39,751 bases of DNA. Origin: an uncultured Acidobacteriota bacterium. Its GTDB lineage: Bacteria > Acidobacteriota > UBA6911 > CAINFC01. Under the pieces are notes generated by a model. That model saw only the letters and a program-made list of their open reading frames with translations, was not told the origin of the DNA and did no database searches. The stretch covers positions 1 through 39,751 of the forward strand of contig CAINFC010000287.1 in assembly GCA_903847975.1 (NCBI GenBank). Direction: 5' to 3'. This document shows positions 8,201 to 38,432 of this stretch, piece after piece (position 1 is the first letter of the stretch; every line of letters starts with the position of its first letter). The position numbers and the translations under genes are program-made.

Positions 8201-8601
8201 TCATTCCATTCCGGACTGCGGCTTCCTAGGAGTTCCTGCACAAAGGTTGCCTCTTGGCGGGCGGCTTTTTCATCCAGGCCAAGGAGGCTGGCTACCCATA
8301 TATGAATACGGGTCGAGGGTTCCAGCGGAAGAGTCAGGAGTTCCTTCAATATTCGCAAGGCTTCGTCCTCCTTGCGGCGAAACACCTTGTCCTCGAAAAA
8401 CCTGGGATTCAACTGGTTGACGATATGAACCGCACTGGCGCTTGCAAGGGTGGCTATCGGCAACAGGCCAAAAGCCTGAAAGATTCGTTTGGCCTGTTCC
8501 CCATGTGCCGGAGTAACCTTACGGTCTTTTTTGGGTCTGGCCAATCTCCGCGTTGCCGTGTCCAGCGATCGGAGTAAATTTCTTCCCTGGCCTTGGAACA
8601 C
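5203..8601 (-). CDS. ATPase-Ser/Thr protein kinase fusion, last gene of the defence operon
   Basis: A 1132-residue, three-part protein starting at GTG 8601 behind AAAAGGAG. Residues 1-335 are an unrecognised N-terminal region. Residues about 336-620 form a P-loop ATPase with Walker A APRRFGKTS (354-362), Walker B LFILIDEAQ (441-449) and sensor LLCGTAN (484-490). Residues about 711-955 are a Hanks-type kinase. They include a Gly-loop-like VGGTAAIH (723-730), helix C Glu 758, HRDIKPANV (837-845, catalytic D839), DFG (862-864) and VPPE (884-887). The VAIK lysine position reads AVRLV with Arg742 instead of Lys, so catalysis may be altered. The C-terminal 175 residues are helical and unassigned. 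It follows the second ATPase gene by 98 bases. Inferred role: sensor or effector kinase of the B'-C' extension, possibly phosphorylating host or island proteins on infection. Confidence 0.8.
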   Translation of the reverse strand: MFQGQGRNLLRSLDTATRRLARPKKDRKVTPAHGEQAKRIFQAFGLLPIATLASASAVHIVNQLNPRFFEDKVFRRKEDEALRILKELLTLPLEPSTRIHIWVASLLGLDEKAARQEATFVQELLGSRSPEWNEVKRILRCHLTGSEGVPAQCFFEEISDFSRVPAPSEPQPDPSTHSLLRLEHPISSRTIKSEQMVPQAARLVWKRMEENIGTVHCPVRLTLPPGKAGTIVTIQLDAVSLNVSAVRESYIDPNRIELQAQEAKHDLSIKLFLPREICFGKRLSLALIVTLPGEQRKTNIVNWENISEGMPTLRALLPDAVDPERVKDRPLGIEVKYADVCDLLKSDKSILLYAPRRFGKTSLLKTLSATLEQDPEVKLFGPFNALLHPESNEFWGSVFDEMRTDRDWVVDGRLDDTCGLPTHAAFENVRSSAKSRGIKRLFILIDEAQALFRGTRGIAIGNELKSRLEAWGVTNAKNAGLHILLCGTANLPRLMGANLRAALSSCSANSIDEWQILSLLRETKGQSGLQSTSDARERLANVSCNLLILNQIIEKLQSTLREVGKTWLFEKDVDAEIDTLLSDFGKEGEHHDIWQYVRDILNESDDINFWKPRTCYIVALALARANQKANTLDERRKEVARLLREWNPAACILEDRLRREIDSLRDEQVVDRSGNFLWEVFEKMLHAKSYQELSKEETGLILTLGVEEIYLPAEILHEKPMAVGGTAAIHNRVVDGRLSAVRLVQIPDAPSRERFVREAQLLQELKNEAAGKEESQYFPLLRKAGFVRSDPNLGAVIYDWVEGTPMKESSFSPFSILAIGLALSRVLAFLEKQKVVHRDIKPANVIVSPPSELGEMKPVLIDFGLARHLSPSPQTSHLGTQGFVPPEVASGREWTSAGDVWSLGTTLQKGLEPTETGKDLIPGLKLLLRKMTSDDPAARPTGRQLAAEFEKLANKESRFAQKDWIARRVGNMPAILEPIGAHIESFVLAAYGGCLSKTDKLMWLSFLMENAIGLLIEQKSGLKKELDEGRTASGQWWSTYLLKGDQIAAKDSFFKCMSNRWAEVAGHFRNGHGHPLEKKRKISDAAKCLGVDSKPESIKLDHIGQSIKEGCLAIDKLLGPPNTLFANLYNSQ

Positions 8602-12987: not shown

Positions 12988-13836
12988 TCAAACCAGATCG
13001 TTATAAATGGTCATCCAGGCCTTTTCCAGGGGAGCTATCGGTCGTAAAAGCCAAGGTTCCATGTGTCGGTCTATTTCCAGCAATCCCTTCCGCTCAATGA
13101 GCTGCAGGACACGCTGTTGCAGGAAATCGTCCCAAGCGGGAATCAGCCGCCAACCGGCAGCCGCATCCAGTTCCTCAGTAGACACTTGGTTCTGCATTGG
13201 AAAATGATCTGTCATTAGCTGAATCATCCAGGCGCCGTACGCGAAGCCCATCTCCTCCAGAACAGGAGCCGGCTTCCTATGAATGATCCCCTTTGATTCG
13301 CTTAGGGCACCACATTTGCTGAAGGCGGCATCCTCCTGATAAGAGCCAACCAGGGGACCGATCAATCCGCTCTTATCTACACCATAGGTCATTCCGAGAT
13401 ACTCTTCTAGCGAGTTTCGGGAAAAGCACAACCCCAGGCCCACCGCTCCGACAAAAAAAGTGTGATACCAGACATCCGCTCCTGAAAGAGGGGAACAGAG
13501 GTTCAGGTGTGCGAGCCATTGGCTAATTCCTGTCTTAAGAAATGGGTCTTCCAACAGGACAATCCTTCCGAAAGGTGTCAAATCTATCTTTTGGGATGAA
13601 AGTCGACCAGAACCACTCAGGATAATTAAACCCATTCCACGGCAGTAATCCAAAATGGCTGGAACCTTCCCGCTAGAGGAACCTGTCGGTATACCCGTTG
13701 CGGCAGAGATTGCCTGATGGTCTCCGTATTTCCCGGAGGCTGCATAGCGCAGCATGGCGTGAATATATTGTCGCTCTGGTTTAAATGTCTTGTGAAAATT
13801 CCTGGGAAGACGATTGCTGTGCTTTGCTTCAGGCAT
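12988..13836 (-). CDS. Divergent DUF4007-like protein (second SspB-type protein, B')
   Basis: A protein of 282 residues from ATG 13836 (285 from GTG 13845; an AGAGGA lies just before the GTG). It follows the general plan of the DUF4007 protein that heads the operon. NFHKTF near residue 16 stands for FSGHQTF. SSSGKVPAILDYC (about 53-65) stands for GVGKNMVESIRYWC. DLTPFGRIVL and a Trp/Leu-rich SQWLAHLNLC helix follow, corresponding to KITPVAEKLL and LWLLHWLL. Identity is low, so homology is an inference from motif order. SspB is reported to nick DNA; whether this copy can do so is unknown. Its start overlaps the SspH stop (TGA at 13829), and the C' ATPase follows 10 bases later. Confidence 0.65.
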   Translation of the reverse strand: MPEAKHSNRLPRNFHKTFKPERQYIHAMLRYAASGKYGDHQAISAATGIPTGSSSGKVPAILDYCRGMGLIILSGSGRLSSQKIDLTPFGRIVLLEDPFLKTGISQWLAHLNLCSPLSGADVWYHTFFVGAVGLGLCFSRNSLEEYLGMTYGVDKSGLIGPLVGSYQEDAAFSKCGALSESKGIIHRKPAPVLEEMGFAYGAWMIQLMTDHFPMQNQVSTEELDAAAGWRLIPAWDDFLQQRVLQLIERKGLLEIDRHMEPWLLRPIAPLEKAWMTIYNDLV

Positions 13837-16800
13837 GGAAACCACGATCCTCTAACGAAGAAATCCTTATTCTTTGGGCTTGAAAAACTAGTTTGCCGGT
13901 CCATTCATTCAGGCTGCGCCCCAGAGACCAGCACTCCCCTATCTGCAGGGATGCTAAACGGTTGGCCCATTCCTGTTGGCTTACGCTGCTGATCGCATTA
14001 AACAGCAGCTGAGCGTGTTCGCGCATTTCGTTTTCCGTCGGCTTGAAGAATAGCTTATGTTCCGCCTGAAAGAGTCGGCTGACCCGGGCGTCGCTGACTC
14101 CTCCTACTCCCTTGACAGTTTGTGTTGCGGTGATCAACGCCAGACCATGTTTTCGACCTTCGGTCAGATACTTGGCAACCGGGGCATCCGGCCCAAGATC
14201 CAAGTTTTGTACTTCATCCAGAACGATGACACGAGGAGTCATCTTATTCCCATGGCTGCAAACGAAGGAATAAAGATCCCAGAGCACAAACTCGATCATT
14301 GCCCTAGCGGAGTGCTTATCCACTTTAAAAAACTGGAATACCTGACAGCGGCAAACAGGATCTGTGAATATGGGTTCCCAACCGATGCCTTGCTGATCCT
14401 GGGCGAAGGGATTCCCCAGGACGAAAGGCTTCAGTTTGCTAATGGTCGATTTCACCGTGGTTTGTGAACGATTGGGATCTCCAATGAATCCTTGCAGGAT
14501 AGTGAGCATTTGATCGAGTGTGAACTTATCCCCGGAGGCCTGCACCCCCTGGCTGATGGCGTCAATCAAAACCGGGAATTGCTGATTTCCCAGTTCATAT
14601 ACGCTCCTGAATATCGAGGCCACCCTTTTAGCAATGGTGAGGCAGGTATCTCGAAAGACCATGCCTTCTTCAACACTCTCCTGTGCTTTAAAAGGGCTGA
14701 TGGGCAGAGGCTGCTGCTGGATATAATGCTGTTTTGGCTTCAAGCAGGCTACTGTTCCCTTTTCCATTTTGCTGGGTAAAAAACCGTCGGTGTAATCGAT
14801 GATCAGTGAATTTTGACCCAACCGCCCCATTTCGCTAAGCAGGCACTGGATGGCATAGGTTTTCCCCATTCCGGATGTGCCGAAAACCAGCATATGGCGG
14901 TTGGCCAGTCCGGAATGTCCGAATTCCCAGTAAACCGGTTTGGCGCCATGGGCTGTTATCCCAAGTAATATGCGTTGTGGCATTTCCGTTACCGTAACCG
15001 AGCTTTGGTCCAGATCGGTCATCGTGCTGGTGCTTGTAGCTACACCGCTTCCTGATTCTGAATCTTGCTGGGACATCGATGAGGAAGAGTCCTGCGAGCT
15101 AATGCTTACAATTTCTCCACTCCCTTCTCCTGGCTCTTTAAATGGTCCGAGCGAGGGAGTATTCTCATAATCGTCATCCTCCAAATAGTCGTCTTGTTTG
15201 GCTTCTTCTTCATCCTCTTCCTCTTTATCCTCCGGATCGTACCAATCGAGCGCATCCTCATCCTCATCGATTGCTGTGGACTGTTCGATGTCCACCAGAA
15301 AGTCACCGACATTTTTGTTGCTAGGAACGACTTGGGCCGCCCATTCTGCCCACGCCTGCGATCCATTGCCATTCTCCATGGCTAGCTTACGGACATATTC
15401 ACTGCCGATTGTATAGAAATTCACATTGATATCGTTCAACCCGGCTGAATTCCATGATCCAATTCGAACGATCTGATCGGATTGATCTTCACTCCAAAAA
15501 GCAAAGACGGAGGCTTGCCATTCAACGGAATAATCCCCTTCCGCCAGTCGTTCCAATGCGGAAAGCACTTTGGACTGCTTTTGCTGAGCTACCGCTGCTT
15601 TACTGGCAATCAGACGATGCAGTTGCAGCCACCAATAACGCTGGTCGGGGCGTTCCTGCTCGGAAGTCTTTTCCTGATGGGGGCAAAAAGCCTGGGTTAA
15701 GACCATAAGCCCATTGTGGATTTGATCCCTGGCGCTGACAAGATGCTTCTCATCTTGGTGGGCAACTTTGCATTCGATCAGGTGCAGCCTCAGCTGGATT
15801 CGGTTTTCTTTGTTCAGCCATGCCACCAACCACAGCAAATCGGGCCGTCTCTCGTTTTTCGCTAGATCGAACCAATGTCGATAAGCATCGAGGGATACGA
15901 GGTGATCGCAAAGAACATCCCCTTTCTCCCGAAGCATCATTCGGGTCAGGCAATAGGCCATGAAATCATGGATATAACAGCCAACACCGGTAGCACGAAC
16001 CAGGGAAAGGCCGGATAGCTCATGCGCAGCCCGCAATACTCCCTTGGCGATCACCTTGCATTGGTCCTCGCTCCACCCGCAACCTCCATATAATTCATGG
16101 ATGGATGCGGATAGCCTCACGTGAATATCAGCTAGTGAGAATTGTTCCGTAGAAATCGTATAGTTGGCTTCTCCATGGGATCCTACTCCCGAGCCGAAAC
16201 CGATAATTTCCCGCTCTTGATCTTTGCTTCCCGAAGGAATCCGCAGCAGCCGCTCATCCATGTTTGGGTCGATGCAAACCACCCATTCGGCTTTCTTATG
16301 CAGGGCGGCGACCACACCTTGCCATGGGGAAAAATCTCCCACTCCCTGAACGATAAACTGCTTCCCGGGCTGTACTCCCTGGTTTTTAAGGCGATGCATG
16401 ACTTGGGAGTGTAAAGTACACAGAGAAAACTGACGATTGCTGATCACCCGGTATCGCTTGTAGCTATCCGTTGGGTGAAGGACCGAACAGCATGCTTTTT
16501 CCAGTATGGGAAACTTTAAACTGCGAGTGGTAATATCGAAGGGCTCAACTTCCGTGAATTTGTTGCCTCCTTTTCCGGCACCGATGAAATCGTAGAAGAT
16601 GGCAATATCCGCTTCAAAACAATCCTGGATCATTCTTTGAAAAAGGTCGGTCTTCCGCGGTTCGACTACCCGGTGAGCTACGGAAAAGCGGCAGTAGCGA
16701 TACACCTGAAATTTCTTTTCCGTCTCGGCCTCTTCCCATCGCTCCTGCCACTGTCCGATCCAGCGAGCAACGTCGACATCATCTCCGGAATTCGTGAACA

Positions 16801-19321
16801 CGGTCACGCTCACCGCATAAGGCTTACGGTTTTCCGGTCTTAGGATAAAGTACCGCTTGTCCTTAGGATCGGCCAGTTTATTCACAAACTGATGTACGGC
16901 AGCAATCACCGGCTGGATATCCTGATTGCGGAAAACAGCCAGGTTTATGCCGTCCCTGGCATGGGGGTGAAGCCGAAAATAGTCGGTCATCAGGCGGAAA
17001 AGCAGCTTTGATTCCCGGCTCTCCCGGAACATTTCTGTGTCGGTTACTTCTTCTTCGCTGCTCTCCTCATAGCGAACCAGAAGTCGCGTGGAAAGAGTCG
17101 TCTCCCTCTCTTCCGGCATCCCGATTCGATGGATCAATTCTGAACCGCGAACATTTGTGTCCAGGTTTTGATCCTCGTTGTACAACAAGCCCACCAACGG
17201 AGAATGAATGGCAGCCATGCTCATCGTACCGGCCCAAATGGACTCACTGAAGCCTTTGTTGCGATCCGCGCGCTCGAGCTCCAAAGACAAGGCGCTTTCG
17301 AAACTTCGAAAAAGAAAGATGACCTGAGCTTCCAGCATCTCCAATACAGCCGGATGAAGAATGGTAGCGATTGCGGATTGCTCGTAGGTCTCGCATCCCC
17401 AGACGGAGCAGTCCTTACCTTTTCGTCGTTGTACAACCAGAAAGAGTCGCAAAAGCATACCAGCCATTTGGGTATCGGTGCCATTCGGATCCTCTAGGAA
17501 ATACCGGTAGCAATCCGCGTAGGCCTGCCTTAACTCCTTCCAGGAATCTCCGAATAATGCAGCGTGCAACCCCTGAGTTTGCGCCAGTGTTAAATATTTG
17601 GCGTATTTGTCCGCTAATTTTTTCAAGACCGGAAGCAGGGGATCCTTGGAAGCAAGCCATTCCGGTTGCAACAGATTGGTCCATTTATGTTCATCCGGCC
17701 GAGCTTCCCGGATGCAGTGCATCATGACCCGACGTGTCTCTTCTTCGTCGGTCACATAAAGCAACTCCTCATAGTACGGCAAATGAAAGACCGGCAGTTT
17801 CCGATGGAAATCCTCGCTGCGCATGGCCTCGTTGGCCCATTGAATTAAAGATTCCGCAAGGCGATAGGAATGTATTTCCGGTAGGCGCCATCCGAATCGC
17901 CGGCGGAAAGTTTTCTCGGAATCACTCAAGGAGAGCTCAACCGAAAATTCGAGGAGGGGTTCTGCGGTCTTAGCATAGCTTGTCTGCTTCGGTTCAGCGA
18001 GGCTGGCGCTAATGACTATGTCTTCTCCTTCCGAGTTGGAAAGCGAGATTTGTTTCTGCAGCAGGTCGTCTACCCCGCCGATAAGACGGTTCAGATAACC
18101 TTTGGCCAGCTCGTTTTTATCCAGGATAATATCCGCTCCTTCGTCGGAGTCGGACCCTTCATAGTCGTGCTTGAATTTATCGGAGATGATTTTGACTCCC
18201 CGAACATTGCTCTCAAAAAATCTTTTATCCCGCCAAAGATCTCGCCATGTCATCCAGATGGCATGCAGCGCCATTTCGATAGGGCCGCCGGATAATTTCC
18301 GCAGGGGATCCTTAGGTTTTGGCTCCTGTTTTTTTCGAAATTTGAGAATTTTGTCGACAATAGCGACAAAGTCGCATTGCATCAACCGCTCCCGATCGGA
18401 TATTTCCTCCCGCTCGATATAGTTTCGCAGACCATTCAGCAGAGATTCCGTATCCGCATAAGTCCCAAGCAACTCCGGTGTATCGATCGCTATGTCTAAC
18501 TCTTCGCCGTCGCTGACTGCTTTCTGAAGCTGGCCAATGGTTCGGAGAGCCTTATCGCGATGGGTGGCATCCAGAAACATCGCATAAGAGAAAAAGGCTT
18601 GGGCCTTTTCAATATACGGCGATAGTGTCGTTCTTTTCTTGCCAATCGCGAAGCTGCTGAAATGAGGAAGATAAAAGATCTTCATCTGGTCGAGCAGGTG
18701 GCGCGCCACATCCCGCCAGGATCCACAGGAACTTAAATCCAACTCCCGGAGCCATTTATCGATTCCCAGAAGATCGGTGCACCCCTGGTCGAGGAGCGGC
18801 TTAAGCAACCGGTCAAACTCTTTCAACTCCGAAGAGTCCAATCCCTCCATTCCGATTGATTTCATTTTTTTTGCAATCCAGGCTTGGAAGGAGCCTTTCA
18901 TGCTTTCCCTCCAAATGTTCTCCGGACTACAGAAATGAAAGTCAGCCAGGCTGCCGGCATCCGTCACCCGATCGCCGCCGCACAAAACCACCAAATTGAT
19001 CTTCCCTGGCTTAGGAGGAAGGTTTCTATAAAAAGTTGGGTTACGTTCTTCCTTGTCGTCATCCAGCCACATCTGCTGTTTGGCTGTCTTTATTCCGGCA
19101 GGCGTCCAATTGCTGCAGGTCATTCCGGCAATTTTGAAAAGCAGGTGGAGATCCGGCGCTCCCAGGCATCGGCTGGTGAAGGTCGAAGCCAGATCAATCG
19201 TGGCCGATTCAATTAAGGTAGGTACAACCGCCAACAGCCGTCGCTCTGGAGAACGCTCTTTGCGAAGACGGGAAATTTTCCGTTCGATATAGTCCCACGC
19301 CGATTCGCTGAAATAGCTCAT
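13829..19321 (-). CDS. sspH: DptH/SspH-like PT-dependent restriction protein with nuclease-like and HerA-like ATPase domains
   Basis: A very large protein (1830 residues) occupying the DptH/SspH position after F and G. The C-terminus is a HerA/FtsK-type ATPase with Walker A GTSGMGKT (1481-1488), Walker B RVIVLDEVQ (about 1692-1700) and ALITATQ. Before it lies a linker that is very acidic (about 1350-1386) and then Ser-rich (about 1398-1430). Before that is a PD-(D/E)XK-like arrangement: D1161 in RRPDLLW, E1183-x-K1185 in LIECKVA, and Q1200 in a following helix. This would be the DNA-cutting centre. The first 1100 residues are unassigned. The start overlaps the SspG stop (ATGA at 19318-19321). 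Known of the family: DndFGH and SspFGH restrict DNA lacking PT, and SspFGH nicks DNA. The residue-level nuclease assignment is mine. Confidence 0.8.
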   Translation of the reverse strand: MSYFSESAWDYIERKISRLRKERSPERRLLAVVPTLIESATIDLASTFTSRCLGAPDLHLLFKIAGMTCSNWTPAGIKTAKQQMWLDDDKEERNPTFYRNLPPKPGKINLVVLCGGDRVTDAGSLADFHFCSPENIWRESMKGSFQAWIAKKMKSIGMEGLDSSELKEFDRLLKPLLDQGCTDLLGIDKWLRELDLSSCGSWRDVARHLLDQMKIFYLPHFSSFAIGKKRTTLSPYIEKAQAFFSYAMFLDATHRDKALRTIGQLQKAVSDGEELDIAIDTPELLGTYADTESLLNGLRNYIEREEISDRERLMQCDFVAIVDKILKFRKKQEPKPKDPLRKLSGGPIEMALHAIWMTWRDLWRDKRFFESNVRGVKIISDKFKHDYEGSDSDEGADIILDKNELAKGYLNRLIGGVDDLLQKQISLSNSEGEDIVISASLAEPKQTSYAKTAEPLLEFSVELSLSDSEKTFRRRFGWRLPEIHSYRLAESLIQWANEAMRSEDFHRKLPVFHLPYYEELLYVTDEEETRRVMMHCIREARPDEHKWTNLLQPEWLASKDPLLPVLKKLADKYAKYLTLAQTQGLHAALFGDSWKELRQAYADCYRYFLEDPNGTDTQMAGMLLRLFLVVQRRKGKDCSVWGCETYEQSAIATILHPAVLEMLEAQVIFLFRSFESALSLELERADRNKGFSESIWAGTMSMAAIHSPLVGLLYNEDQNLDTNVRGSELIHRIGMPEERETTLSTRLLVRYEESSEEEVTDTEMFRESRESKLLFRLMTDYFRLHPHARDGINLAVFRNQDIQPVIAAVHQFVNKLADPKDKRYFILRPENRKPYAVSVTVFTNSGDDVDVARWIGQWQERWEEAETEKKFQVYRYCRFSVAHRVVEPRKTDLFQRMIQDCFEADIAIFYDFIGAGKGGNKFTEVEPFDITTRSLKFPILEKACCSVLHPTDSYKRYRVISNRQFSLCTLHSQVMHRLKNQGVQPGKQFIVQGVGDFSPWQGVVAALHKKAEWVVCIDPNMDERLLRIPSGSKDQEREIIGFGSGVGSHGEANYTISTEQFSLADIHVRLSASIHELYGGCGWSEDQCKVIAKGVLRAAHELSGLSLVRATGVGCYIHDFMAYCLTRMMLREKGDVLCDHLVSLDAYRHWFDLAKNERRPDLLWLVAWLNKENRIQLRLHLIECKVAHQDEKHLVSARDQIHNGLMVLTQAFCPHQEKTSEQERPDQRYWWLQLHRLIASKAAVAQQKQSKVLSALERLAEGDYSVEWQASVFAFWSEDQSDQIVRIGSWNSAGLNDINVNFYTIGSEYVRKLAMENGNGSQAWAEWAAQVVPSNKNVGDFLVDIEQSTAIDEDEDALDWYDPEDKEEEDEEEAKQDDYLEDDDYENTPSLGPFKEPGEGSGEIVSISSQDSSSSMSQQDSESGSGVATSTSTMTDLDQSSVTVTEMPQRILLGITAHGAKPVYWEFGHSGLANRHMLVFGTSGMGKTYAIQCLLSEMGRLGQNSLIIDYTDGFLPSKMEKGTVACLKPKQHYIQQQPLPISPFKAQESVEEGMVFRDTCLTIAKRVASIFRSVYELGNQQFPVLIDAISQGVQASGDKFTLDQMLTILQGFIGDPNRSQTTVKSTISKLKPFVLGNPFAQDQQGIGWEPIFTDPVCRCQVFQFFKVDKHSARAMIEFVLWDLYSFVCSHGNKMTPRVIVLDEVQNLDLGPDAPVAKYLTEGRKHGLALITATQTVKGVGGVSDARVSRLFQAEHKLFFKPTENEMREHAQLLFNAISSVSQQEWANRLASLQIGECWSLGRSLNEWTGKLVFQAQRIRISSLEDRGFHA

Positions 19322-21021
19322 GATCGTTTCTCCCTCTTAGATCCAGGATTGTGCACCAGGGCACATGCATCCGATAGCTGGATCAGCAATCCCGACGCAT
19401 CGAGCATTTCCAGGAGCCAGGCATCCCGGCCGTTTCCACTACTGCCTTCCTTCTTCCCCTCCGCCCAGGCACTTGCCCGACTGAATCCATCGTTATCGAA
19501 CACCAGACCATAGCGGGCTTCGACAAGCTGCTTGAACCGGTCATAGGTCAATCGCCCATCCGCTGGAACGGTTGTTACCACTAACAGACGCAGTAGCAGT
19601 TCATTTAGAGTAAAGCGGGCACCTGAGCCTCGCCACGGAACGATTAATCCGATCTTTTTTGCCATGCTCAAAAAAAGTTTGGAACCATATCGGCTGTCAG
19701 CCTCTTTCAGGATTTTTTCCTTTTCTTTGGCGTCTTTGTGCTGGACGAGTCCAAGATAATCTTTTGCGTCTTGGATCTGGTCGCACCGAAGGGCACGGTA
19801 GATCATCTTTTCCGCCATTTTTACGGTATGTCTCGAGAGCCTTTTCGCCCCGGAGTCGTTCTCTTCCGGCGCGGTAACGGCAAACCGGTAGCCGGGCCAG
19901 GCAATCTGGTGTTCTAAAGGCGAGACACGAACACTTTGCAAGGAGAGACTTCGCAGCAATTGCATTGCGCAGGCCAGCTCCATAAGACGAAGCCGTTCGA
20001 TTACATCTAGCTCGGCAAGGCAAATGCGGCGCAGTTCCGTGGCAAATAGATATCCTTCCTGCCAACTGGCAATCGGACAATATCCAGCACTGACATAGCG
20101 CAAGTCGTTATCTTTCCCATCGGTACATTCAACCGTCTTATTATCATCGAGAGCATCAATGAATTCTGCAATTGCAGTGAGTGTAGGTGGGCAAACCTCC
20201 AAAAGTTGATCTAGGTGTTGCTGCAGTTCATCATGTAAATACAAAGGATGGGTTTCTTCATCCAGCAATCCGACACCCGTTTTTTCATTCCACTCAAGAA
20301 CAGACATGAGTGTTTGTTTTAATGCATTGCAAACTTGCAAGTAGAGGACTTCTCCGCCGCGGCCTAGAAACCTATGTTTATTCATTGTCAATAATATGTT
20401 TCGGTTTCCAAGCATTTCTTCCCAATCGCTTGGTGGCGTTTTACGAGCTGCTGTCTCATTCCATATTGTTTCTCCCGCTAAGAGACCTTTACAGATTGGT
20501 AGAAAACTTTGTGCGCACCACGTTCTTCCAAACCCGGCACCCTGGAAACCTAAAAATAAATTTTCCAGGGTGCGAATAACGTCGCTTTCTCTACCGTTTT
20601 CGGCTAACTTAATCGCCTCATGTAGTTTTTGTACAAGAATTTTATATTGCTCTCGATGCACAACATGGCGTGAATCTAGACGTGAAGCCCCCATAAAGGC
20701 GAAAAGCTTCAGATTGAGACGTGCTTTGGGAGAATAGTAAAGTTTGCAGTTTCGTTTCCAATTGTAAAGTGTACCTATTGGCGGGAGTGGGGCAGAAAAA
20801 GAAGGCTGATTGCTATCTCTGGCTTTTCCATCTAGAACATTACTATTATCTATTTCACCATTTTCACTATCTTCAATCCTTTTTGCGGAAGTTGCGATAA
20901 GTAAAAATTCGATTAAAAGTTCTATTGCCGACTGATCAGCGAAAAACCGTTTTCCAAATAAACGGATCGCAGGATTAATTTCTTGTTCAGACGGTGAAGG
21001 GAACATCTCATCATAAAACAT
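19318..21021 (-). CDS. sspG: DptG/SspG-like PT-dependent restriction protein
   Basis: A 567-residue protein between the F- and H-type genes, the fixed order of DndFGH/SspFGH modules. I see no catalytic motif. The chain is largely helical, with a C-terminal winged-helix-like part (PADGRLTYDRFKQLVEARYG onward) resembling what occurs in DptG. The start is unambiguous: GGAGGTGAGCG directly precedes ATG 21021, embedded in the last codons of SspF (overlap 11 bases), so F and G are translationally coupled. The stop overlaps the SspH start. It is probably a structural subunit bridging F and H. Assignment depends mainly on position and size. Confidence 0.75.
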   Translation of the reverse strand: MFYDEMFPSPSEQEINPAIRLFGKRFFADQSAIELLIEFLLIATSAKRIEDSENGEIDNSNVLDGKARDSNQPSFSAPLPPIGTLYNWKRNCKLYYSPKARLNLKLFAFMGASRLDSRHVVHREQYKILVQKLHEAIKLAENGRESDVIRTLENLFLGFQGAGFGRTWCAQSFLPICKGLLAGETIWNETAARKTPPSDWEEMLGNRNILLTMNKHRFLGRGGEVLYLQVCNALKQTLMSVLEWNEKTGVGLLDEETHPLYLHDELQQHLDQLLEVCPPTLTAIAEFIDALDDNKTVECTDGKDNDLRYVSAGYCPIASWQEGYLFATELRRICLAELDVIERLRLMELACAMQLLRSLSLQSVRVSPLEHQIAWPGYRFAVTAPEENDSGAKRLSRHTVKMAEKMIYRALRCDQIQDAKDYLGLVQHKDAKEKEKILKEADSRYGSKLFLSMAKKIGLIVPWRGSGARFTLNELLLRLLVVTTVPADGRLTYDRFKQLVEARYGLVFDNDGFSRASAWAEGKKEGSSGNGRDAWLLEMLDASGLLIQLSDACALVHNPGSKREKRS

Positions 21022-23341
21022 CGCTCACCTCCAAAACCCCCTTTTGAACCAGATACTGTTGTCGACGAAAGGTGTGATCTGTCCGCAATCGCACCAGCAT
21101 AATGCGTTCACTGCTTTCCCTTGCCAGACGAAGAATTTGCGATTTGAAGATTTCCAGCCGCTCGACATAAGCTGCCTGAATGATTTCGCCTACTTCTCCA
21201 AAGTGCCTCATTACTACGTAGTCGAGAAAGGGTAGGGTAAGAACTAGATATATATTGGCGATTCGCCCCAGCCCTTTCAGTTGGAGATCCGTGCGCTTGA
21301 CTCCAATCATATTAACTTTGGTCGCAAGACACATCTCGATTTCGCTGTTCCAGTCAACCTGGGCCATCACAACTTGGGCGCTCTGCCGAATTTCACCCTT
21401 CCCACGGCTGAGCGTAATATACAGCCGACGATCCTGGCCTTTGGCTCCTTCCGGCAGGCGCACACCGGTAAAATGCTCTTGCAACACATGATAAATGCGT
21501 TGTTCCAGGCTGTTTTTTTCCGTCATTTCAAGTTGTGAGTTCTCTGTCTGCCACTCTTTCCAGCGCCAGAGCATGGGCGAATTGAGGAACTGATGGAGAT
21601 AGGAACGCTGATCAGGCTGGAAATCATAGAGAAAAAAGAGCATCCTGCGAACTTGTTCCCGGGCTTGGTCTGGGTTTAATCCTGGGAAACTGTTGTTTCC
21701 TGGGCCGGAGCCATGTTTAAGGAGAAGGTGAAATTCCTGTTCACAATCTTCAATTCCGATCCGAAAGTAATGATCCTTCACCTTCAGCCAAAGTCTTCTT
21801 TCCCAGGTTGGGCAGGGACGCTCCCCAAATCTCTGTTTTTTAATTTCGCGGATGGCTCGCATCTGCTGGGCGGGATCGTGCTCCTTCATCCCGTTATCGC
21901 CAAAAAAACGGTTGAAGAACATATATTCGACCTGAAGCGGGGAAAAGTTTTTCTCTCGCATTTCAAGCAAGTCGGACTCTTCCAAGCCAGAGGTCAGAAT
22001 ATAAGCTAAATGCTCTGTGATCTGTCGAAGCGTCAATCTTGAGCCGTATTCATACATCCGGCGATAAGCAAGAAAAATTCTTTCGAAGATAATCGACTGG
22101 TATTTTTGGATCAAATGAACATTTAAATAAATGGGGCAGTTGAAATGGCAGCCGGCGTTAGCGCATACTTCCCATTGGTCAGAATCGATCATTCGTTCAA
22201 AAATCTGCTCTGCCAGATGGAGATTATCAATACGGGCCAAATTCACAACCAAAAAGCGGGTCTGTCCAAGAACAAGATCTGCGGTTCCCTCTTCCTCGCT
22301 GATAGCACGGAGAACATCTTTTTCGATATTTACATCCAGCTTTGCGAATGCTCGGCATTCTTTTCGAAATAGATCCAGCAGCGCACCTGTATTCGAGATG
22401 ATCAGGAACCGGCGGGCTCCCTGAATAATTTCCTGCACCAGTTTTGAATCATCCTTTTGATTTCTTTCACTCAAGTCCTTCAGTAAGGAAATCTGAATGT
22501 TGGCTAAATCTATGTCCTCGCGTGGGTCTAATTGATTTGAGAGAGGCTGGTCGTCTGGGATGCCTTTGAGTCGTTTATAAACATTCAATGCAATGGTCGA
22601 CTTCCCATCGCCCGCGTGCCCCGTGAGGATTATCTGCCTTCCATTTTTATCCTGCAATTCTTTAAGGATCAATTCGGTTAAGGGGTGGGGAACATGAACT
22701 AATGGAAAAAATGAATTACACGCCTGAAACTCAGCGAGTGCATTCTCGTTACTTCCATTAAGCCTTTGCAGAGAGTTGAGATATGAAACAAACGGATTTT
22801 TTATTGTACTAAGGTCTGTGGGTAAAAGCAGGCGATTCAGTTTCCCATCTCGATTCCTATTAATGCTCGACAATGTATTCCCCATCTCTTTATTTGTCTT
22901 TCTCTCAGACAGACATTTTAGAATTACTTCTTCTACTCTTGTGCGAGATTCTACATTCATTAGAAGTCCATAGAAATCTATATGCAATATTGCATAGTCT
23001 ACAATTTTCGTTAACATTGTAGGACCTGCAATGGTATGTATCTTTTTTAAATCTAAATCCAGCCCTGCATGTGCAATCAGTGTCCAAAAAGAAGTTGTTT
23101 TTAGGTAATAGAATGGGTTGTAAGGTCTATTTCTGTCATTGTCTGATCCATAAATCTTTATTAGTTTTGTGAATTCATTTTGTAAAAGGTTGTTGTAGTA
23201 TATTTGATTATTAGTAATATATTTCTGCTTGATTAAATTGATGATGGCTAATATCAGAATGTGCTTGTGAGGTTTGTACCCACTGAGGGTTTTACCTAGG
23301 CTTTCAAGCTCAGCAAAGAGGTCTATTATCTTTGTGCTCAT
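21011..23341 (-). CDS. sspF: DptF/SspF-like ATPase with N-terminal sulfur-binding-domain-like region
   Basis: 776 residues from ATG 23341 (GTG 23359 gives 782; neither has a good RBS). Walker A GHAGDGKST lies at 241-249, and the downstream region matches the DptF/SspF ATPase role in PT-dependent restriction. About 9-146 is an extra domain with the layout of the DNA sulfur-binding domain (SBD) of ScoMcrA-type PT-dependent HNH endonucleases. It contains YKPHKHILILAII (normally HKPLLLLA), then NPFYYLKTTSFW (normally PFxxLxxDGFW), then DFYGLLMN..SRTRVEEVIL. No HNH follows; the SBD-like piece is joined straight to the ATPase. The part encoding residues 1-150 is markedly more AT-rich than the rest of the gene, suggesting a separate origin. 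Known: SBDs bind PT-modified DNA. Inferred: this protein reads PT marks for the restriction complex. Confidence 0.8.
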   Translation of the reverse strand: MSTKIIDLFAELESLGKTLSGYKPHKHILILAIINLIKQKYITNNQIYYNNLLQNEFTKLIKIYGSDNDRNRPYNPFYYLKTTSFWTLIAHAGLDLDLKKIHTIAGPTMLTKIVDYAILHIDFYGLLMNVESRTRVEEVILKCLSERKTNKEMGNTLSSINRNRDGKLNRLLLPTDLSTIKNPFVSYLNSLQRLNGSNENALAEFQACNSFFPLVHVPHPLTELILKELQDKNGRQIILTGHAGDGKSTIALNVYKRLKGIPDDQPLSNQLDPREDIDLANIQISLLKDLSERNQKDDSKLVQEIIQGARRFLIISNTGALLDLFRKECRAFAKLDVNIEKDVLRAISEEEGTADLVLGQTRFLVVNLARIDNLHLAEQIFERMIDSDQWEVCANAGCHFNCPIYLNVHLIQKYQSIIFERIFLAYRRMYEYGSRLTLRQITEHLAYILTSGLEESDLLEMREKNFSPLQVEYMFFNRFFGDNGMKEHDPAQQMRAIREIKKQRFGERPCPTWERRLWLKVKDHYFRIGIEDCEQEFHLLLKHGSGPGNNSFPGLNPDQAREQVRRMLFFLYDFQPDQRSYLHQFLNSPMLWRWKEWQTENSQLEMTEKNSLEQRIYHVLQEHFTGVRLPEGAKGQDRRLYITLSRGKGEIRQSAQVVMAQVDWNSEIEMCLATKVNMIGVKRTDLQLKGLGRIANIYLVLTLPFLDYVVMRHFGEVGEIIQAAYVERLEIFKSQILRLARESSERIMLVRLRTDHTFRRQQYLVQKGVLEVSDVL
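22904..23317 (-). other. SBD-like (phosphorothioate-reader) domain segment of SspF
   Basis: This is the domain described under the SspF-like gene, listed separately because it changes how the system may work. Diagnostic points are the HKHILILA helix, NPFYYL with the following FW pair, and the terminal SRTRVEEVILKCL helix. It lies inside an AT-rich patch that ends near 22750. Confidence 0.6.
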
Positions 23342-23386
23342 TAAAATGGGACCATTCACTTATGTTCTTTAAATAACTTTGATTTA

Positions 23387-24529
23387 TTATTGGATTTGTT
23401 TAATTGCAGATTCGAGATGTGAGAGAGCAATATTTACGTCATCCTCAGTATTGTAACGACCCAAAGAAATTCTTATTGCACAACGGGCAAGGTCCGAAGG
23501 GATATTCAAGGCAAGCAAGACATGTGATGGCAATAATGTTCCGGAATTACAGGCAGACCCAATACTCATGCAAAGCAGAGGGGCTCGAGCAAGCAATAAA
23601 TCGGCTGGAATGCCAGGAAAAATTATATTTGAAGTACCTGGCAGCCTATCGGCCAAACGGCAAATGATTTGTGCGTTGGGGAAAATCCTGGCAATTCTTT
23701 CCTCAATTTTTGCTCTTAGCTTCCCAATTTTTGCCATATCGGGAACAGTAAATTCTTTACACAGTTTACACGCAGCACCTAACCCAACTACGCCTGGCAC
23801 ATTCAATGTGCCAGGACGCAAATAATCCTCTTGTCCGCCCCCATACATTAAGGGAGCAGAAAGAAATTTTTTTAGACTTTCACGAACCACCAAAAAGCCA
23901 ATACCTTTTGGGCCATATGCCTTATGTGAACTAAACGATAGAAGATCTGCACGAAATTCATTAACGGAAACTGGGATTTTCCCCAATGCTTGTGCGGCGT
24001 CACAATGAAAAAGTGCTCCACATGAATGTGCTACATCTGCAATATCACCTACTGGTTGAATGACGCCAGTTTCATTGTTCGCGGCTTGAACAGACAGGAG
24101 CAAAGTATCCTCATCAACTTCGGCTTTTAATTTATTTAAATTGATTTGTCCCCCGTTTTCAACTGGAACTCGACATATCGTATAGCCTTTCGACTGTAAT
24201 GCTGCGCATGGGCCTAAAACGGACTTATGTTCGACAGTAGAAGTCACTATCTTGCGCTTTTTTAATACAGATTGGGCTACTCCTAAAATTGAAAGATTGT
24301 TAGATTCTGTCGCCCCACTCGTAAAAATAACCTCTGTTGGGCTACAACATACACAATCAGCAATTAATTCACGTGCTAGCGCAATGGACTTGCCTGCAGT
24401 TCTACCGTAGTAATGTGGACTAGCCGGATTTCCGAACTTCTCTCTAAAAAAAGGTACTATAGCTTCTACGACTTCAGGGGCACACTGTGTCGTCGAATTA
24501 TTATCCAAATAAATAAATCTTGAGTTCAT
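23387..24529 (-). CDS. sspA: Cysteine desulfurase (SspA/DndA/IscS-like)
   Basis: A 380-residue PLP enzyme that takes sulfur from L-cysteine as a persulfide and passes it to the SspD-type protein for PT synthesis. Visible class-V aminotransferase features are YLDNNSTT at the N-terminus, H101 (STVEHKS), D177 (FHCDAAQ) and the PLP lysine K203 in SSHKAYGPKG. The catalytic Cys327 lies in IGSACNSG. I chose ATG 24529 because family members begin just before YLDNN; an upstream ATG at 24577 would add 16 residues and overlap the SspD gene's end by 26 bases. It is AT-rich compared with its large neighbours. Its placement between D and F inside the operon means modification and restriction genes are co-transcribed. 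Confidence 0.92.
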   Translation of the reverse strand: MNSRFIYLDNNSTTQCAPEVVEAIVPFFREKFGNPASPHYYGRTAGKSIALARELIADCVCCSPTEVIFTSGATESNNLSILGVAQSVLKKRKIVTSTVEHKSVLGPCAALQSKGYTICRVPVENGGQINLNKLKAEVDEDTLLLSVQAANNETGVIQPVGDIADVAHSCGALFHCDAAQALGKIPVSVNEFRADLLSFSSHKAYGPKGIGFLVVRESLKKFLSAPLMYGGGQEDYLRPGTLNVPGVVGLGAACKLCKEFTVPDMAKIGKLRAKIEERIARIFPNAQIICRLADRLPGTSNIIFPGIPADLLLARAPLLCMSIGSACNSGTLLPSHVLLALNIPSDLARCAIRISLGRYNTEDDVNIALSHLESAIKQIQ

Positions 24530-24551
24530 GTGATATAGGAAAGCACACACT

Positions 24552-25388
24552 TCACAAGTGGCATATAATGCAACCATTGTTTTCGTCGCTAAACTGCCTC
24601 TCGAAAGTTGAAAGAAGTGAAGCGTTTTTAAAATTCGGCGTTTCAGCTAATTTTCTCTTTGTATAATCTTCTTTTATTTTTTCCATTCGTTTCGGTTGAG
24701 ACAATTCACTAAGACTTTCACCTTGAACCCAAGTGTATTTTTCGCCAGTTAAAGCATCCTCTCTTTCATAATCCATTGCCTCTTTAAACAAGCCTGGATG
24801 TTTTTCTAAAAGACCTACCCATTCTCTTCTCTGTTGATAAAAGCAAAAAAAACAGCCAGACCGAGAACGCCAGGAATAATAAGCAGGTAGCCCCAGATTG
24901 CTATCCTCAAGAATGCGCATTACACCATCTAAGCCTATACCATTTTCAACGAACGGAAACTTGGCGTAAATATTTGGTTTTGTTGAAATGTAGCCTTTAC
25001 GATTAGGTTCATCTGCTCGAATTCCAATGTACATTATCACTTGATCATTTTTTATATATTCTTCAAATGGTTTAATCTTCAAGTTTTCAGTACACCAACG
25101 AACCTGAGGGGAAGGAAGAAAATTGCCTCTATTCCTAAGAAGGTCATCGAATCCTATTTTTGGAACTATGCGTATGATCGGTTTACCCAAATGAACTTCA
25201 ATCTTATTGAGGTAGTCATAAGTTTCTTGAAGCTCCTTTTGGGTATCACAAAACACGTACTCTAAATTGGGGATCCGGTCGCGCAAGTACAACGCCAGGG
25301 CTGTACTATCCTTGCCGCCGGAAAGAGAGAGAATATGCCGAAAGGAGGGATCGTTTTCGTTTGCGTGTGTGTTGGGGGGGGCGCTCAT
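24552..25388 (-). CDS. sspD: DndC/SspD-like ATP pyrophosphatase (PT sulfur transfer)
   Basis: A 278-residue PAPS-reductase-superfamily protein expected to activate the DNA backbone with ATP and insert sulfur. The PP-loop SLSGGKDST spans 21-29. Cysteines that could hold an Fe-S cluster are C99 (VRWCTENLK), C179 and C182 (SGCFFCFYQ), with a second pair C273/C276 at the C-terminus (GCIICHL). CTENLKIKPFEEYI and IGIRADEP are typical of DndC-like proteins. ATG 25388 lies 2 bases after the SspC stop. The gene is shorter than classic DndC (about 500 residues) and fits SspD. It is AT-rich like sspA. Confidence 0.92.
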   Translation of the reverse strand: MSAPPNTHANENDPSFRHILSLSGGKDSTALALYLRDRIPNLEYVFCDTQKELQETYDYLNKIEVHLGKPIIRIVPKIGFDDLLRNRGNFLPSPQVRWCTENLKIKPFEEYIKNDQVIMYIGIRADEPNRKGYISTKPNIYAKFPFVENGIGLDGVMRILEDSNLGLPAYYSWRSRSGCFFCFYQQRREWVGLLEKHPGLFKEAMDYEREDALTGEKYTWVQGESLSELSQPKRMEKIKEDYTKRKLAETPNFKNASLLSTFERQFSDENNGCIICHL

Positions 25389-25390: not shown

Positions 25391-28300
25391 TTAATCTTTA
25401 GACTCTTCCGTTAATTCTTCGGCAAGCAGTAGGAGAGCCGCTTGCATAATAATTGGGTTTTGTCCTGTGGGAAAATCTTGTAGCTTTTGCTTGAGTTTCC
25501 CAACCAGGTTATGAGCTTGTTCCTGTTCCTGAAGAGTGAGCCTTGCCGTGTGGGCTAGCAACCTGTTCTTCGGATCCGCTCTGAACTCGGTGCGTTGAAT
25601 CGATTCTCCCAGGGTCAGGGCCAGACGGGGGAAACGTTCCACATCTGTATCCTGCCAGTTAGCCGTAGGCCGGCTAGCTACCATGGCCAGGACAGAAAGG
25701 ACGCCTTCCTGATTTCTTTCTGCCTGGATCACGCGCCGTAGGAAGGAAAGCATCGCTGGATCGCTCTCCCGTGGCTCAAGTCGGGTGGCAATTTCCCGCA
25801 AACGCTGCCAACCATTTTCATCTGTGTCCAGCCCACAGGCATGCAGTAGCTGGTTTTTCGCATTACCATAAGTAATAAGGGCTACATCAGCCCATTCCTT
25901 TAGTCCTTCGTTCAGCGTAGAGAAGAATATCGGAATCATCTCGGTTTCCGTCCCGCTGCCAAAGAATGGTTTGTACCCCAAACCCGTCGGCAGATCGGAG
26001 AAAAGGAATTGATCGGGGGCTTTGGCTTTGGTGAATGCTTCACGCAGGCGAATGGTTTTCTCGGAAAGACGTTGCGTATTCCAAGCAAATTCAGGCAAAC
26101 CCTTGACCATACGAAAAAGCGCCCGGACTACGGGTACTATTGCAGGCTGTGTTCCCAGTCCTTTAGCGAGTCTTTCGACGATAGCCTTTTTGATTCCATC
26201 CAGGCGGCAACCTCCTACAGCATAGAGTTCGGGGCGGCGCATAAGCACCTCGAAATCGGCGATGCCCGGTTCAGGGAGGAAGGTGCCTTCCCGATAGAGA
26301 GTCGTCTCTTCGGCATTGGCGGCCATGAAAGCACAGAGCAGTATGGGCTGCATCCCCTCCAGCACTCCATAAGGCGGAGCCGCGAGCTTTCCAAACAGTT
26401 GACTGACCGGCAGGGGCGTGCCTGCCGATGCAAAGATCTCTTGACGCAGGAAATCCCAAACCGGGTATATATTGGGACCGCTTTCCGCTGGGGGGTCACT
26501 AAAACCCCAGTGTTCCGGAGCAACCTGACGGTGAATTCCGGTATTCTTCAGGACGGATTCATAAATGCTTCGTTCCGGAGGGTAACCGTTGAAACCCAGA
26601 TTCCTCTGCTCGGAGCGGGTGAGCATGGCTTCCATCAGGTTACGCCGAGCCGCAGCGGCGGCAGAGGAAAGCGCTCGTCGGACCACCAATTCATTGCGTA
26701 CCCTGGGAGTAAGAACGTAAATCTGATCGCAGATACGGGAGAGCAGCTGAGAGACGTCAACACGACTTTTAACCGCCTGACGTTCTCCCTTCCAAAACCA
26801 CAAACACTCACTCCCCTCCGGTTCCTCACGGGGGTCCAACAACGTCTCCACCATGTTTCGCAGGTTGTTTTCCCACTCTGAGAGTCGCAGCGAGATTTCT
26901 CGCCGGGCAACACGATCTCCCTGAAGCTCCGGAGTGTTGTCCCATGCCCAGCGCAGGGCAGCCAGTTCTTCTACTCCCGTTTGAATTTCCCCCATTTGCT
27001 GTGGAAGGGCAAACAGGAGTTCTGGGCGATCTGGTGGGGTTGCTTTGGCTGCATTAAGAAAATCCTGGAGCATAGCCGATGAGGAAGAGAGACAAATCAC
27101 CACGATCCCGGCTGCGCCGGTCATTGGAACCAAGCCTTTGAGAATCGTCTCCGGATCTTCCACGTAGTTGAGCTGGAAGTACCTCCAGGAGCCGGTCTGA
27201 AAGCTGTGGCGCCGGGCCGTCATAGGACGGGCAGGCAGGTACCTTTGCAGGTGGTCGGCCAGGGAAATGGATCCTCGGAGCTGACGCTTTCCTTCTGCAA
27301 TCCGTTCCTCGATGTCCACATCGCTTCCTTCCCAGATACGATAGGTCTGGTTAAATCGTCGGTGGGTAACGATGGACTGCTCCTCCAGAAAGCGAATGGC
27401 AAGCAGAAGTTCCTCCGAAAACCGTGCGGTATCGTAAAGCGAAAGGGAGATCATGGAAAGCGTCGGCGATAAGGGGCTAAAGTCACCCAGGGATCCCAGA
27501 ACGCCGATGGTTTTAATCAGGTCGACATGCGCAGCATGCAGATTATCCTGGCGATCCAGTACATCGGCCGCTTCCATCCAACGTTTGGCTTGCGGCTGTC
27601 GAAACAATCCGCTTCCGAAATTGAGCGTGAAATAATCGAAAATCCGGTTTAGGCGGAGAAATACGGTTTCCTGGGTCTCCCAGGGTTGGCTGTGAAGAAA
27701 ATCCTGAAAACCACCCGGCTCCAGACTGCCCAAATAGGAAAAGAGAGAGCGCTCGTTTTGAGCAAAGCGACGAAAAAGAAAGGGTAGGGCGGCCAGAGTC
27801 GCGGGATGAAGTGGGTAAGACCGTTCGCAGAGCTCCTGCCATTCTTCCGGCTGAATTCCTGCCGGGCAGAACCCGTTTTCAGCACAACACCCGGCAATAT
27901 TTCTGATTTTGGCTCGAAGCCCTGCAGGAAGGGGCTCCGCTCGGAAGATCGCCGCGGCAACCATTCGCATTACTTGTTCCGGCGGTTCCAGGAAAGCAAT
28001 ATCCTCAAAACGGCCATGAATCTTGGCCCATTCCTTGCGCGTCAGGTTGTCCAGGTGCAGACCATATTCTTCGAACGACTGGTGCAGGAATCCGATCAGA
28101 AGAAAGGGAACGTTGCCGCTTCGGGAGGACTGCTCTGCCAGTTCCTGAAGTACAAAAAGGTCGGACTTTTGGGGCATACGAGCGGCATATTCGAAGATTT
28201 TTCCGAGCTCATCGATCAGCAGGAGCAAACCCTGAAATCCGTTTTCGATGGCGGCGGATGCGAGGTGGCGGATCGAGCGGACTATACGCCGGGCATCGAT

Positions 28301-28813
28301 GGATTTTCCCTGTCGGGAGTCTTGAAGGGCTGCCTCACATTCGCCGGATAGACTTATTGCTGCCGATCCTTCTAATGCGCGGGCGGATGGAAGGATGCCT
28401 TCGACCAAACATAAGGCGGCCGGAGCTCGTCGGGCCGTAATGGCCACGGGAAGAAAGCCTTTGCCGATGACTTTTTCAGCGGTTGCCGCCGCTAAGGGGG
28501 AATCTGACTTGGCGAGTACCTGTAAAGCATCCTCCCTTCCGGGGAGAGTGGGACAGAGCAGCTTGCTCAAAAAGACGGCAAAGGCGGACTTCCCCACACC
28601 ATACGGGCCAGTGATAGACCAGGCACGTGAGAGGGAGTGCTCGGCGAGGCTCTCAAAAATCCTTCGTAAAACATGCCGGGCTGTGGGAGTGAGAATGTAT
28701 TCTCTGTTCTGATCGGCGCTCTGATAATCCCTTTCCAGGTGTATAGAACGTAGAAATCTTTGCCGGACTTCCGTGAAATCGGAAAAATGGCGTGTCGCGC
28801 TGGCTATTGGCAA
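25391..28813 (-). CDS. sspC: SspC-like P-loop ATPase of the PT modification complex
   Basis: A 1140-residue protein with Walker A GPYGVGKS (69-76) and Walker B LLLLIDELGK (196-205), followed by helical domains without other motifs I can name. In SspABCD systems SspC is the large ATPase that works with the SspB nickase and SspD to place PT on one strand. Start: TTG 28813 behind GAGGTGA, overlapping the last 10 bases of sspB; no better start exists upstream. It resembles BREX-type ATPases in general layout but has no BREX partners here. A long frame on the opposite strand (26009-26881) is a compositional shadow. Assignment is firm from neighbours, size and P-loop. Confidence 0.85.
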   Translation of the reverse strand: MPIASATRHFSDFTEVRQRFLRSIHLERDYQSADQNREYILTPTARHVLRRIFESLAEHSLSRAWSITGPYGVGKSAFAVFLSKLLCPTLPGREDALQVLAKSDSPLAAATAEKVIGKGFLPVAITARRAPAALCLVEGILPSARALEGSAAISLSGECEAALQDSRQGKSIDARRIVRSIRHLASAAIENGFQGLLLLIDELGKIFEYAARMPQKSDLFVLQELAEQSSRSGNVPFLLIGFLHQSFEEYGLHLDNLTRKEWAKIHGRFEDIAFLEPPEQVMRMVAAAIFRAEPLPAGLRAKIRNIAGCCAENGFCPAGIQPEEWQELCERSYPLHPATLAALPFLFRRFAQNERSLFSYLGSLEPGGFQDFLHSQPWETQETVFLRLNRIFDYFTLNFGSGLFRQPQAKRWMEAADVLDRQDNLHAAHVDLIKTIGVLGSLGDFSPLSPTLSMISLSLYDTARFSEELLLAIRFLEEQSIVTHRRFNQTYRIWEGSDVDIEERIAEGKRQLRGSISLADHLQRYLPARPMTARRHSFQTGSWRYFQLNYVEDPETILKGLVPMTGAAGIVVICLSSSSAMLQDFLNAAKATPPDRPELLFALPQQMGEIQTGVEELAALRWAWDNTPELQGDRVARREISLRLSEWENNLRNMVETLLDPREEPEGSECLWFWKGERQAVKSRVDVSQLLSRICDQIYVLTPRVRNELVVRRALSSAAAAARRNLMEAMLTRSEQRNLGFNGYPPERSIYESVLKNTGIHRQVAPEHWGFSDPPAESGPNIYPVWDFLRQEIFASAGTPLPVSQLFGKLAAPPYGVLEGMQPILLCAFMAANAEETTLYREGTFLPEPGIADFEVLMRRPELYAVGGCRLDGIKKAIVERLAKGLGTQPAIVPVVRALFRMVKGLPEFAWNTQRLSEKTIRLREAFTKAKAPDQFLFSDLPTGLGYKPFFGSGTETEMIPIFFSTLNEGLKEWADVALITYGNAKNQLLHACGLDTDENGWQRLREIATRLEPRESDPAMLSFLRRVIQAERNQEGVLSVLAMVASRPTANWQDTDVERFPRLALTLGESIQRTEFRADPKNRLLAHTARLTLQEQEQAHNLVGKLKQKLQDFPTGQNPIIMQAALLLLAEELTEESKD

Positions 28814-29760
28814 GAATCACCTCGATAATAGCATTGAAGCATGCTGTTTCCATCCACCGCCTCTCGACGATAGATTTGTTTTAAACCTGCGGTTTCATCA
28901 AGGATTATCTTCCCATGGGTGATTTTTTCCATCTCCTCCAAATGCACAATCAAGGTATTTTCATCCAGCTTAAAGGCTTGCCCGGGGCTGCCTATCCCGT
29001 AAAGACATTCCTGTACGCTCATTGTATTTCTGCCTGGGTGAGCCAGGTCAAAATAGTCCAAGAGAGCATAGCCAAGAACCTGGCTGGGCAAGGTAGGTTT
29101 ATGGCCCACGCAAAATCGGAAGAAATCCTTATCAGGAGAAGACTGTAATAAGCCAAGCTCCTGAAAAGGACAATCAAAGCCTTCCTCCGAAATGGTTGTT
29201 TTCCTTTTCATAGGAGAAGGCAGGTAGGCTCGAAGGAAACAGTCGACATCTCTTAACAGGACGGATGCCTTTACCGCCACGGAATGCCTCTCTGCAAAGG
29301 AAGCGACAAAACCGAGCAGCTCCTGTTTGGTGAAATCGGGTTTGTGAAACCAGGAAAAGGCAATTTGGCTCGTAGTGCAACTCTTGGGGTTGGCTATAAG
29401 GAGCCAATGGAGTAGCCATAAGGAGGCATCATCCTCCAGATAGGGATCCCACCCGTTATCTCCAAGAAGTTTCTCTGCAACTGGCGTGATCTTAAGAACG
29501 GTACCGGATGGCTTTTTCCCGAGGCCACTTTCGTCGACCAATCGGGTCACGGTACACCAATAGCGGATGCTCTCCACCATATTTTTCCCTACGCCAAGGA
29601 TAACCGGGGCATCCTCCCGAAGGAAAAGATCATGAGATTCGGTCAATCCGCGGACGCCTTTCTCTAACCATCCATAGCGAAAGGTGAAGGTTTGGTGGCC
29701 TGAAAAACGGAACCGGATTTTCGTATTTGTGGTTTTTTTTCTGGTGCGACGTGCTTCCAA
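28804..29760 (-). CDS. sspB: DUF4007 protein, SspB-like, first gene of the PT operon
   Basis: A 318-residue DUF4007-family protein. The signature RFSGHQTFTFRYGWLEKG (18-35), GVGKNMVESIRYW (56-68), KITPVAEKLLG and LWLLHWLLIANP are all present in order. In single-strand PT systems SspB is a DNA nickase that prepares the site for sulfur insertion. TTG 29760 is the most upstream start, with weak AGGCAGGC before it; a run of eight A's encodes the basic N-terminus (RRTRKKT). It overlaps sspC. An inverted repeat upstream (29820-29846) may control the whole operon. Confidence 0.85.
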   Translation of the reverse strand: MEARRTRKKTTNTKIRFRFSGHQTFTFRYGWLEKGVRGLTESHDLFLREDAPVILGVGKNMVESIRYWCTVTRLVDESGLGKKPSGTVLKITPVAEKLLGDNGWDPYLEDDASLWLLHWLLIANPKSCTTSQIAFSWFHKPDFTKQELLGFVASFAERHSVAVKASVLLRDVDCFLRAYLPSPMKRKTTISEEGFDCPFQELGLLQSSPDKDFFRFCVGHKPTLPSQVLGYALLDYFDLAHPGRNTMSVQECLYGIGSPGQAFKLDENTLIVHLEEMEKITHGKIILDETAGLKQIYRREAVDGNSMLQCYYRGDSCQ

Positions 29761-38204: not shown

Positions 38205-38432
38205 ATGTGGATCACTATCCCACAATTATCTAAACTTTCCGGCCTTTCAGAAAAGCGTATCCGCCGGTACATCACGAACGGGATGCGGTACTACCAGGAT
38301 AATCCGGGTGGCCTGATAACTGTCCGGATGAGTGACCTTGAAGACTATCGGAAGCGGTTTGTACGCTGTGCTGAACGCGAAATGCCTGACGCAATTCGAA
38401 TTCTATCGACCATGAGGGAGATCAGATCATGA
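38205..38432 (+). CDS. Excisionase-like small HTH protein
   Basis: A 75-residue protein starting directly after the previous stop, with AAGGAGG at 38192-38198. It has a MerR/Xis-type winged HTH (IPQLSKLSGLSEKRIRRYITNG), a wing with ITVRMSDLEDY and a helical tail. Lying directly before the integrase with an ATGA overlap, it is the likely recombination directionality factor. Confidence 0.7.
   Translation: MWITIPQLSKLSGLSEKRIRRYITNGMRYYQDNPGGLITVRMSDLEDYRKRFVRCAEREMPDAIRILSTMREIRS

Follow-up and report, generated by a model that had tools for sequence, protein, structure and literature searches.

The SspF-like protein encoded in a 39,751-nucleotide stretch of DNA from an uncultured Acidobacteriota bacterium (contig CAINFC010000287.1; the whole stretch is hereafter called the window) begins with a domain that, judged by homology, predicted fold, and pocket conservation, is a genuine sulfur-binding domain (SBD). 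Such domains have been described from type IV HNH enzymes. We consider it probable (roughly 0.7) that the SBD of SspF reads host phosphorothioate (PT) through a pocket comprising H25, K26, and P76 and restrains SspFGH on self DNA, and that it represents an exchangeable reader cassette across relatives.

The SspF-like ORF occupies positions 21011–23359 of the minus strand, with an ATG at 23341 and a product of 776 aa. It belongs to a complete sspBCDA-FGH set arranged in the order sspB-C-D-A-F-G-H on that strand: the DUF4007 protein SspB (28804–29760; PADLOC SspB, 1.7e-89; Pfam DUF4007, 1.9e-79), SspC (25391–28813; PADLOC SspC, 1074.6 bits), the PAPS-reductase-like SspD (24552–25388; PADLOC SspD, 2e-109), the cysteine desulfurase SspA (23387–24532; PADLOC SspA, 5.1e-132), SspG (19318–21021; PADLOC SspG, 2.9e-19), and an SspH/DndH-like HerA/FtsK ATPase (13829–19321; PADLOC DndH, 5.4e-47, and SspH, 8.5e-22). 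SspF is thus accompanied by SspG, SspH, and the PT writers SspA–D, and the order is the same in related loci. SBD-SspF loci include SspG, and also SspD, SspC, SspB, and SspH where the contig reaches.

The PADLOC SspF models align with the window protein from residue 182 onward only (best E = 5e-30), and residues 1–181 are therefore an extension of SspF. The core (residues 182–776; 21014–22798, minus strand) contains the Walker A motif TGHAGDGKS (residues 240–248; 22598–22624), in which T240–K247 are invariant in our alignment; the core profile and the P-loop together identify the protein as SspF. Between the extension and the core, residues 151–181 (22799–22891) had low pLDDT in the full-length model (<50 for residues 150–164), and this stretch of about 30 residues is predicted to be a flexible linker that tethers the SBD to the P-loop core. 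A Pfam scan found no HNH domain and no nuclease or kinase insert in the window protein, and no Pfam model matched its N-terminal extension. A fusion to a P-loop ATPase instead of an HNH nuclease, as the original prediction had it, is thus borne out.

Sequence comparison placed the SBD, which we assign to type A, at residues 1–150 (22892–23341, minus strand). NCBIfam NF045808 (“phosphorothioated DNA-binding restriction endonuclease”) matched residues 23 to ~93–94 (E = 2.7e-7); at 26.6 bits against a cut-off of 180, covering residues 23–94 and with no HNH, this match does not place the protein in the full-length type IV endonuclease class. The sole PDB match of the extension by phmmer was 8h0l, SBDHga1, the SBD of Hga (E = 3e-14). 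A profile built from 25 SBD sequences (the window, 22 other SspF loci, and two SBD-HNH enzymes) matched 8h0l at 2.5e-42 and the ScoMcrA SBD weakly (0.054), but with H116/R117 and Y164/P165 in register. These matches to known SBDs are far beyond chance and agree with the SBD-like region that had been proposed at 22904–23341, which corresponds to residues 1–146; the region was correctly located and its end was set slightly short, as the domain stops near residue 150. The motif order described for the first 145 residues is also present, with PHKHILILA at residues 24–32, NPFYYLKTTSFW at residues 75–86, and a terminal ESRTRVEEVIL.

The predicted structure led to the same assignment. An AlphaFold2 model computed from an alignment of the 23 SspF-fused SBDs, with both SBD-HNH rows left out, reached a pLDDT of 92.1 and a pTM of 0.86. 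The known SBDs were its top matches, as had been anticipated: Foldseek ranked 8h0l first (1.5e-10), followed by the SBDs of SprMcrA (from 7e-4) and ScoMcrA, and VIA-align gave Z values of 21.5 for Hga, 12.7 for SprMcrA, and 12.2 for ScoMcrA. A confidently modelled domain thus resembles three solved SBD families. Winged helices of ORC/Cdc6 came next in VIA-align, with a Z of 9.5.

In ScoMcrA, H116, R117, and P165 line the sulfur cavity (PMC6224610), and R117K is tolerated. Their counterparts in the window SBD, in register, are H25, K26, and P76, the first two at 23264–23269 and the third within N75-P76-F77-Y78-Y79 (23105–23119, minus strand; ScoMcrA Y164-P165-F166-W167-A168). These three residues are invariant in the 23 SspF-fused SBDs, as are P24, L31, F57, and L80, and the remainder of these domains diverges to 16–39% identity with the window domain. 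The Y164 and A168 equivalents are N75 and Y79, both at positions that vary among known SBDs; N75, in place of the ScoMcrA tyrosine, may count against the reader model. A predicted base-reading loop, H102–T108 (23018–23038, minus strand), lies at the position of ScoMcrA S187RGRR191 in the alignment to 5zmo. The loop at this base-contact position differs consistently among three SBD types, reading about [ST][IV][GAS][GS][PA] in type A, R[FLA]T..R in type B, and most often TSVGH in type C.

To place the fusion among its relatives, we scanned one genome per species, which yielded 194 SspF relatives, and analyzed the best 80; as these were chosen as the best matches, the 80 loci are not a random sample. 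A fused SBD was found in 30 of these best 80 of 194 loci, comprising type A or B on 23 SspF ORFs (some ending at a contig edge) and type C on seven further proteins, mostly from Chromatiaceae. The remaining SspFs among the best 80 of 194 had no SBD detectable by the SBD models used, and many begin at the position equivalent to residue ~182. We accordingly rejected the idea that the SBD is a general DptF/SspF domain: the PADLOC SspF match starts where the extension ends, and many SspFs are SBD-less, so the N-terminal region is not an unrelated domain kept in all of these proteins, an outcome that the original prediction had named as fatal to it. An assembly artefact is an unlikely source of the fusion, since it recurs across many independent records, among them the complete Desulfopila sp. 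IMCC35008 genome (locus L032) and, as type C, several isolates.

Other arrangements were also found. In locus L044, a type C SBD is encoded as its own ORF directly 5′ of an sspF that has none; in L018, a degenerate type B SBD (6560–7100; stops present and the middle missing) lies just ahead of an SBD-less sspF ORF, reflecting either natural loss or an assembly error. SspF proteins of ~1500 aa carry the SBD in six loci (L020, L025, L026, L029, L031, and L032). In all three of those scanned, a NERD domain and two kinase domains lie between the SBD and the core, and the SBD, NERD nuclease, two kinases, and SspF core form one polypeptide (L020, 4247–8821; L025, 4157–8776; L032, 4166–8758). No second SBD was found in the source genome (estimated 99% complete) with NF045808 and the SspF-SBD profile. 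Searches of viral contigs found no relatives of the whole SspF, and no phage record was found that carries the window-type SBD.

The phylogeny of the SBD was compared with those of its partners. Each of the three types was recovered as a single supported clade in the tree of SBDs; type C grouped with one SBD-HNH set, to which the L106 E. coli plasmid enzyme belongs, and types A and B with another. The SspG tree requires nine changes between the A and B labels, and well-supported branches force at least six of these; the SspF-core tree requires eight, with at least five forced. The trees have 18–45 rows and metagenome bins supply many of the loci, so the precise count of swaps is uncertain. When labels were shuffled 500 times on the SspG tree, 500 of 500 shuffles were as clustered as the observed labels for type B and 24 of 500 for type A. 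Two loci illustrate an exchange: L012, with a type A SBD, and L013, with type B, share mostly 80–95% DNA identity over the core and sspG, but identity is ~37–49% over the SBD and the sequence 5′ of it, and the break is sharp and falls where the core begins. In all 22 genes compared, GC3 was lower in the SBD codons than in those of the core (mean difference −0.19; Wilcoxon p = 5e-7). The domain evolves fast, with a mean within-type identity of ~0.3, and its identity was uncorrelated with that of the SspF core (rho 0.13) or of SspB/C/D (about −0.1); for comparison, rho was 0.94 for core and SspG and 0.95 for SspB and SspC. Exchange of A and B SBDs among SspF systems is thus well supported.

SBD type showed no association with the SspB tree (304–309 of 500 shuffles as clustered) or the SspC tree (421–432 of 500) and a weak association with the SspD tree (29–37 of 500). 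Because SBD type fails to track the writer trees, a matching of the reader to the motif of the writer was not supported. It is possible, at somewhat short of even odds, that the PT reader of SspFGH is a swappable cassette comparable to the target-recognition domains of type I restriction enzymes. SspF would then have acquired different SBD lineages repeatedly and traded them many times without regard to either the PT writer or the F-G-H core, and an arms race acting on the reader surface is a plausible driver.

As to function, we infer that the SspF SBD binds PT-DNA, that it reads sequence context, and that its effect is restraining and not stimulating. The SBD would take the Rp sulfur of a host phosphorothioate into the H25/K26/P76 pocket, and the PT-bound domain would signal “self” to the SspF-G-H translocase/nuclease; cutting would then be restrained or stalled on host DNA with PT, and on phage DNA without PT the SBD would stay empty and SspFGH would act. 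Restraint is the likeliest role because SspFGH damages the DNA of, and is toxic to, PT-less cells, which SspBCD relieves (PMC8092258), and because DndFGH is said to show lower ATPase, translocase, and nicking activity with PT-DNA (cited in PMC10853773). SspF lacks an SBD in many SspFGH systems, which speaks against the SBD-reader model as a general one; other PT readers must therefore exist, and the SBD is one way of reading PT but not an obligatory one. Winged helices of SspG/DndG have been suggested as PT discriminators (Rakesh et al., PMC10853773) and perhaps serve this purpose in SBD-less systems.

The same pocket could also work with the opposite sign, the PT-bound SBD stimulating the SspF NTPase and loading or arming the complex against nearby unmodified DNA, in the manner of SspE. 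Such activation has precedents in SspE and DndI, which are PT sensors with PT-stimulated NTPase activity, and the SBD is attached by a flexible linker to the NTPase subunit. The characterised SspFGH, however, acts and is toxic in cells that lack PT, which is the opposite sign, and activation appears unlikely, although that system may itself be SBD-less. The rapid divergence of the domain within types would also suit a winged helix of SBD-like type that no longer reads sulfur and now serves general DNA binding or protein contact, as winged helices are generic DNA binders and those of ORC/Cdc6 are the next fold match. With H25, K26, and P76 kept in 23 of 23 fused SBDs despite divergence elsewhere, and with PT writers encoded in SBD-SspF loci, we regard this loss of reading as quite improbable.

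The long SspFs in which NERD and two kinase domains separate SBD from core (L020, L025, and L032) raise a further alternative, in line with the co-effector view of Rakesh et al. 2024, in which the SBD brings SspF or the adjacent NERD/kinase domains to PT-DNA for suicide or type IV activity. The same domain order appears in a published architecture list (Rakesh et al. 2024), but the window SspF has no nuclease or kinase insert, and cutting of PT-DNA would strike the host genome marked by SspABCD; such a targeting role is very improbable. A restraining PT reader remains the preferred reading.

Further genes of the same run lie downstream of sspH on the minus strand. A 1425-aa protein (8700–12977) has weak similarity to SspC (PADLOC, 2e-12). 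Relatives of it occurred in all 17 searched genomes from SBD-bearing (A, B, and C) or SBD-decayed sspF loci and were strong in seven of ten genomes with SBD-less sspFGH; by coordinates, the gene lies immediately 3′ of sspH in L012, L013, and L032. It may be a conserved fourth partner of SspFGH. Between it and sspH, a 285-aa protein (12988–13845) gave a sub-threshold match to the SspB-like DUF4007 (E = 1.7e-4), and, on sequence grounds, the two proteins are possibly a second SspB/SspC pair. A 1132-aa protein with AAA_22 and protein-kinase domains (5203–8601) ends the run; the genomes of relatives gave just generic kinase-domain matches to it. A phage-type integrase is encoded at the edge of the window (38429–39628, plus strand), and the defence cluster may be part of an integrated element.

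The window SBD resembles those of Hga (8h0l), SprMcrA (7cc9, 7ccd, and 7ccj), and ScoMcrA (5zmo, 5zmm, and 5zmn) in fold, pocket residues, and length (~150 aa), and differs from them in its base-reading loop; the motif read by SBDHga was not found in the open-licence papers searched. The SprMcrA and ScoMcrA SBDs are borne by PT-DNA-cleaving type IV HNH endonucleases, whereas that of the window sits on an NTPase subunit whose complex is expected to spare PT-DNA. The SspABCD-SspFGH system of Vibrio anguillarum FF-93 (PMC8092258) has the same gene set, PT writers with F, G, and H, but, judged by its description, the paper makes no mention of an SBD, and the PADLOC SspF models are likewise without one. 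SspE and DndI (DUF262-DUF1524) are PT-sensing restriction proteins with NTPase activity, like the proposed SBD-SspF, but their PT sensing relies on a hydrophobic patch of the DUF262 domain at the N-terminus and not on an SBD. Rakesh, Aravind and Krishnan (2024, PMC10853773) list N-terminal wHTH, NERD, and kinase fusions of DndF as co-effectors, so that a winged helix occurs on the F subunit as in the window SspF, and their wHTH-NERD-kinase-kinase order is that of loci such as L020; separately, and only for HNH proteins, they identify the SBD as a wHTH. In the main text of that article we found no statement of a PT reader on F, of three SBD types, or of cassette exchange, and none of an SBD on SspF/DndF as a PT reader in the open-licence papers searched.

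These results suggest that a system expected to protect PT-DNA has reused a domain familiar from enzymes attacking it. A PT reader of known structural type on the F subunit would make the discrimination by DndFGH/SspFGH between self DNA, with its sparse PT, and phage DNA directly testable.
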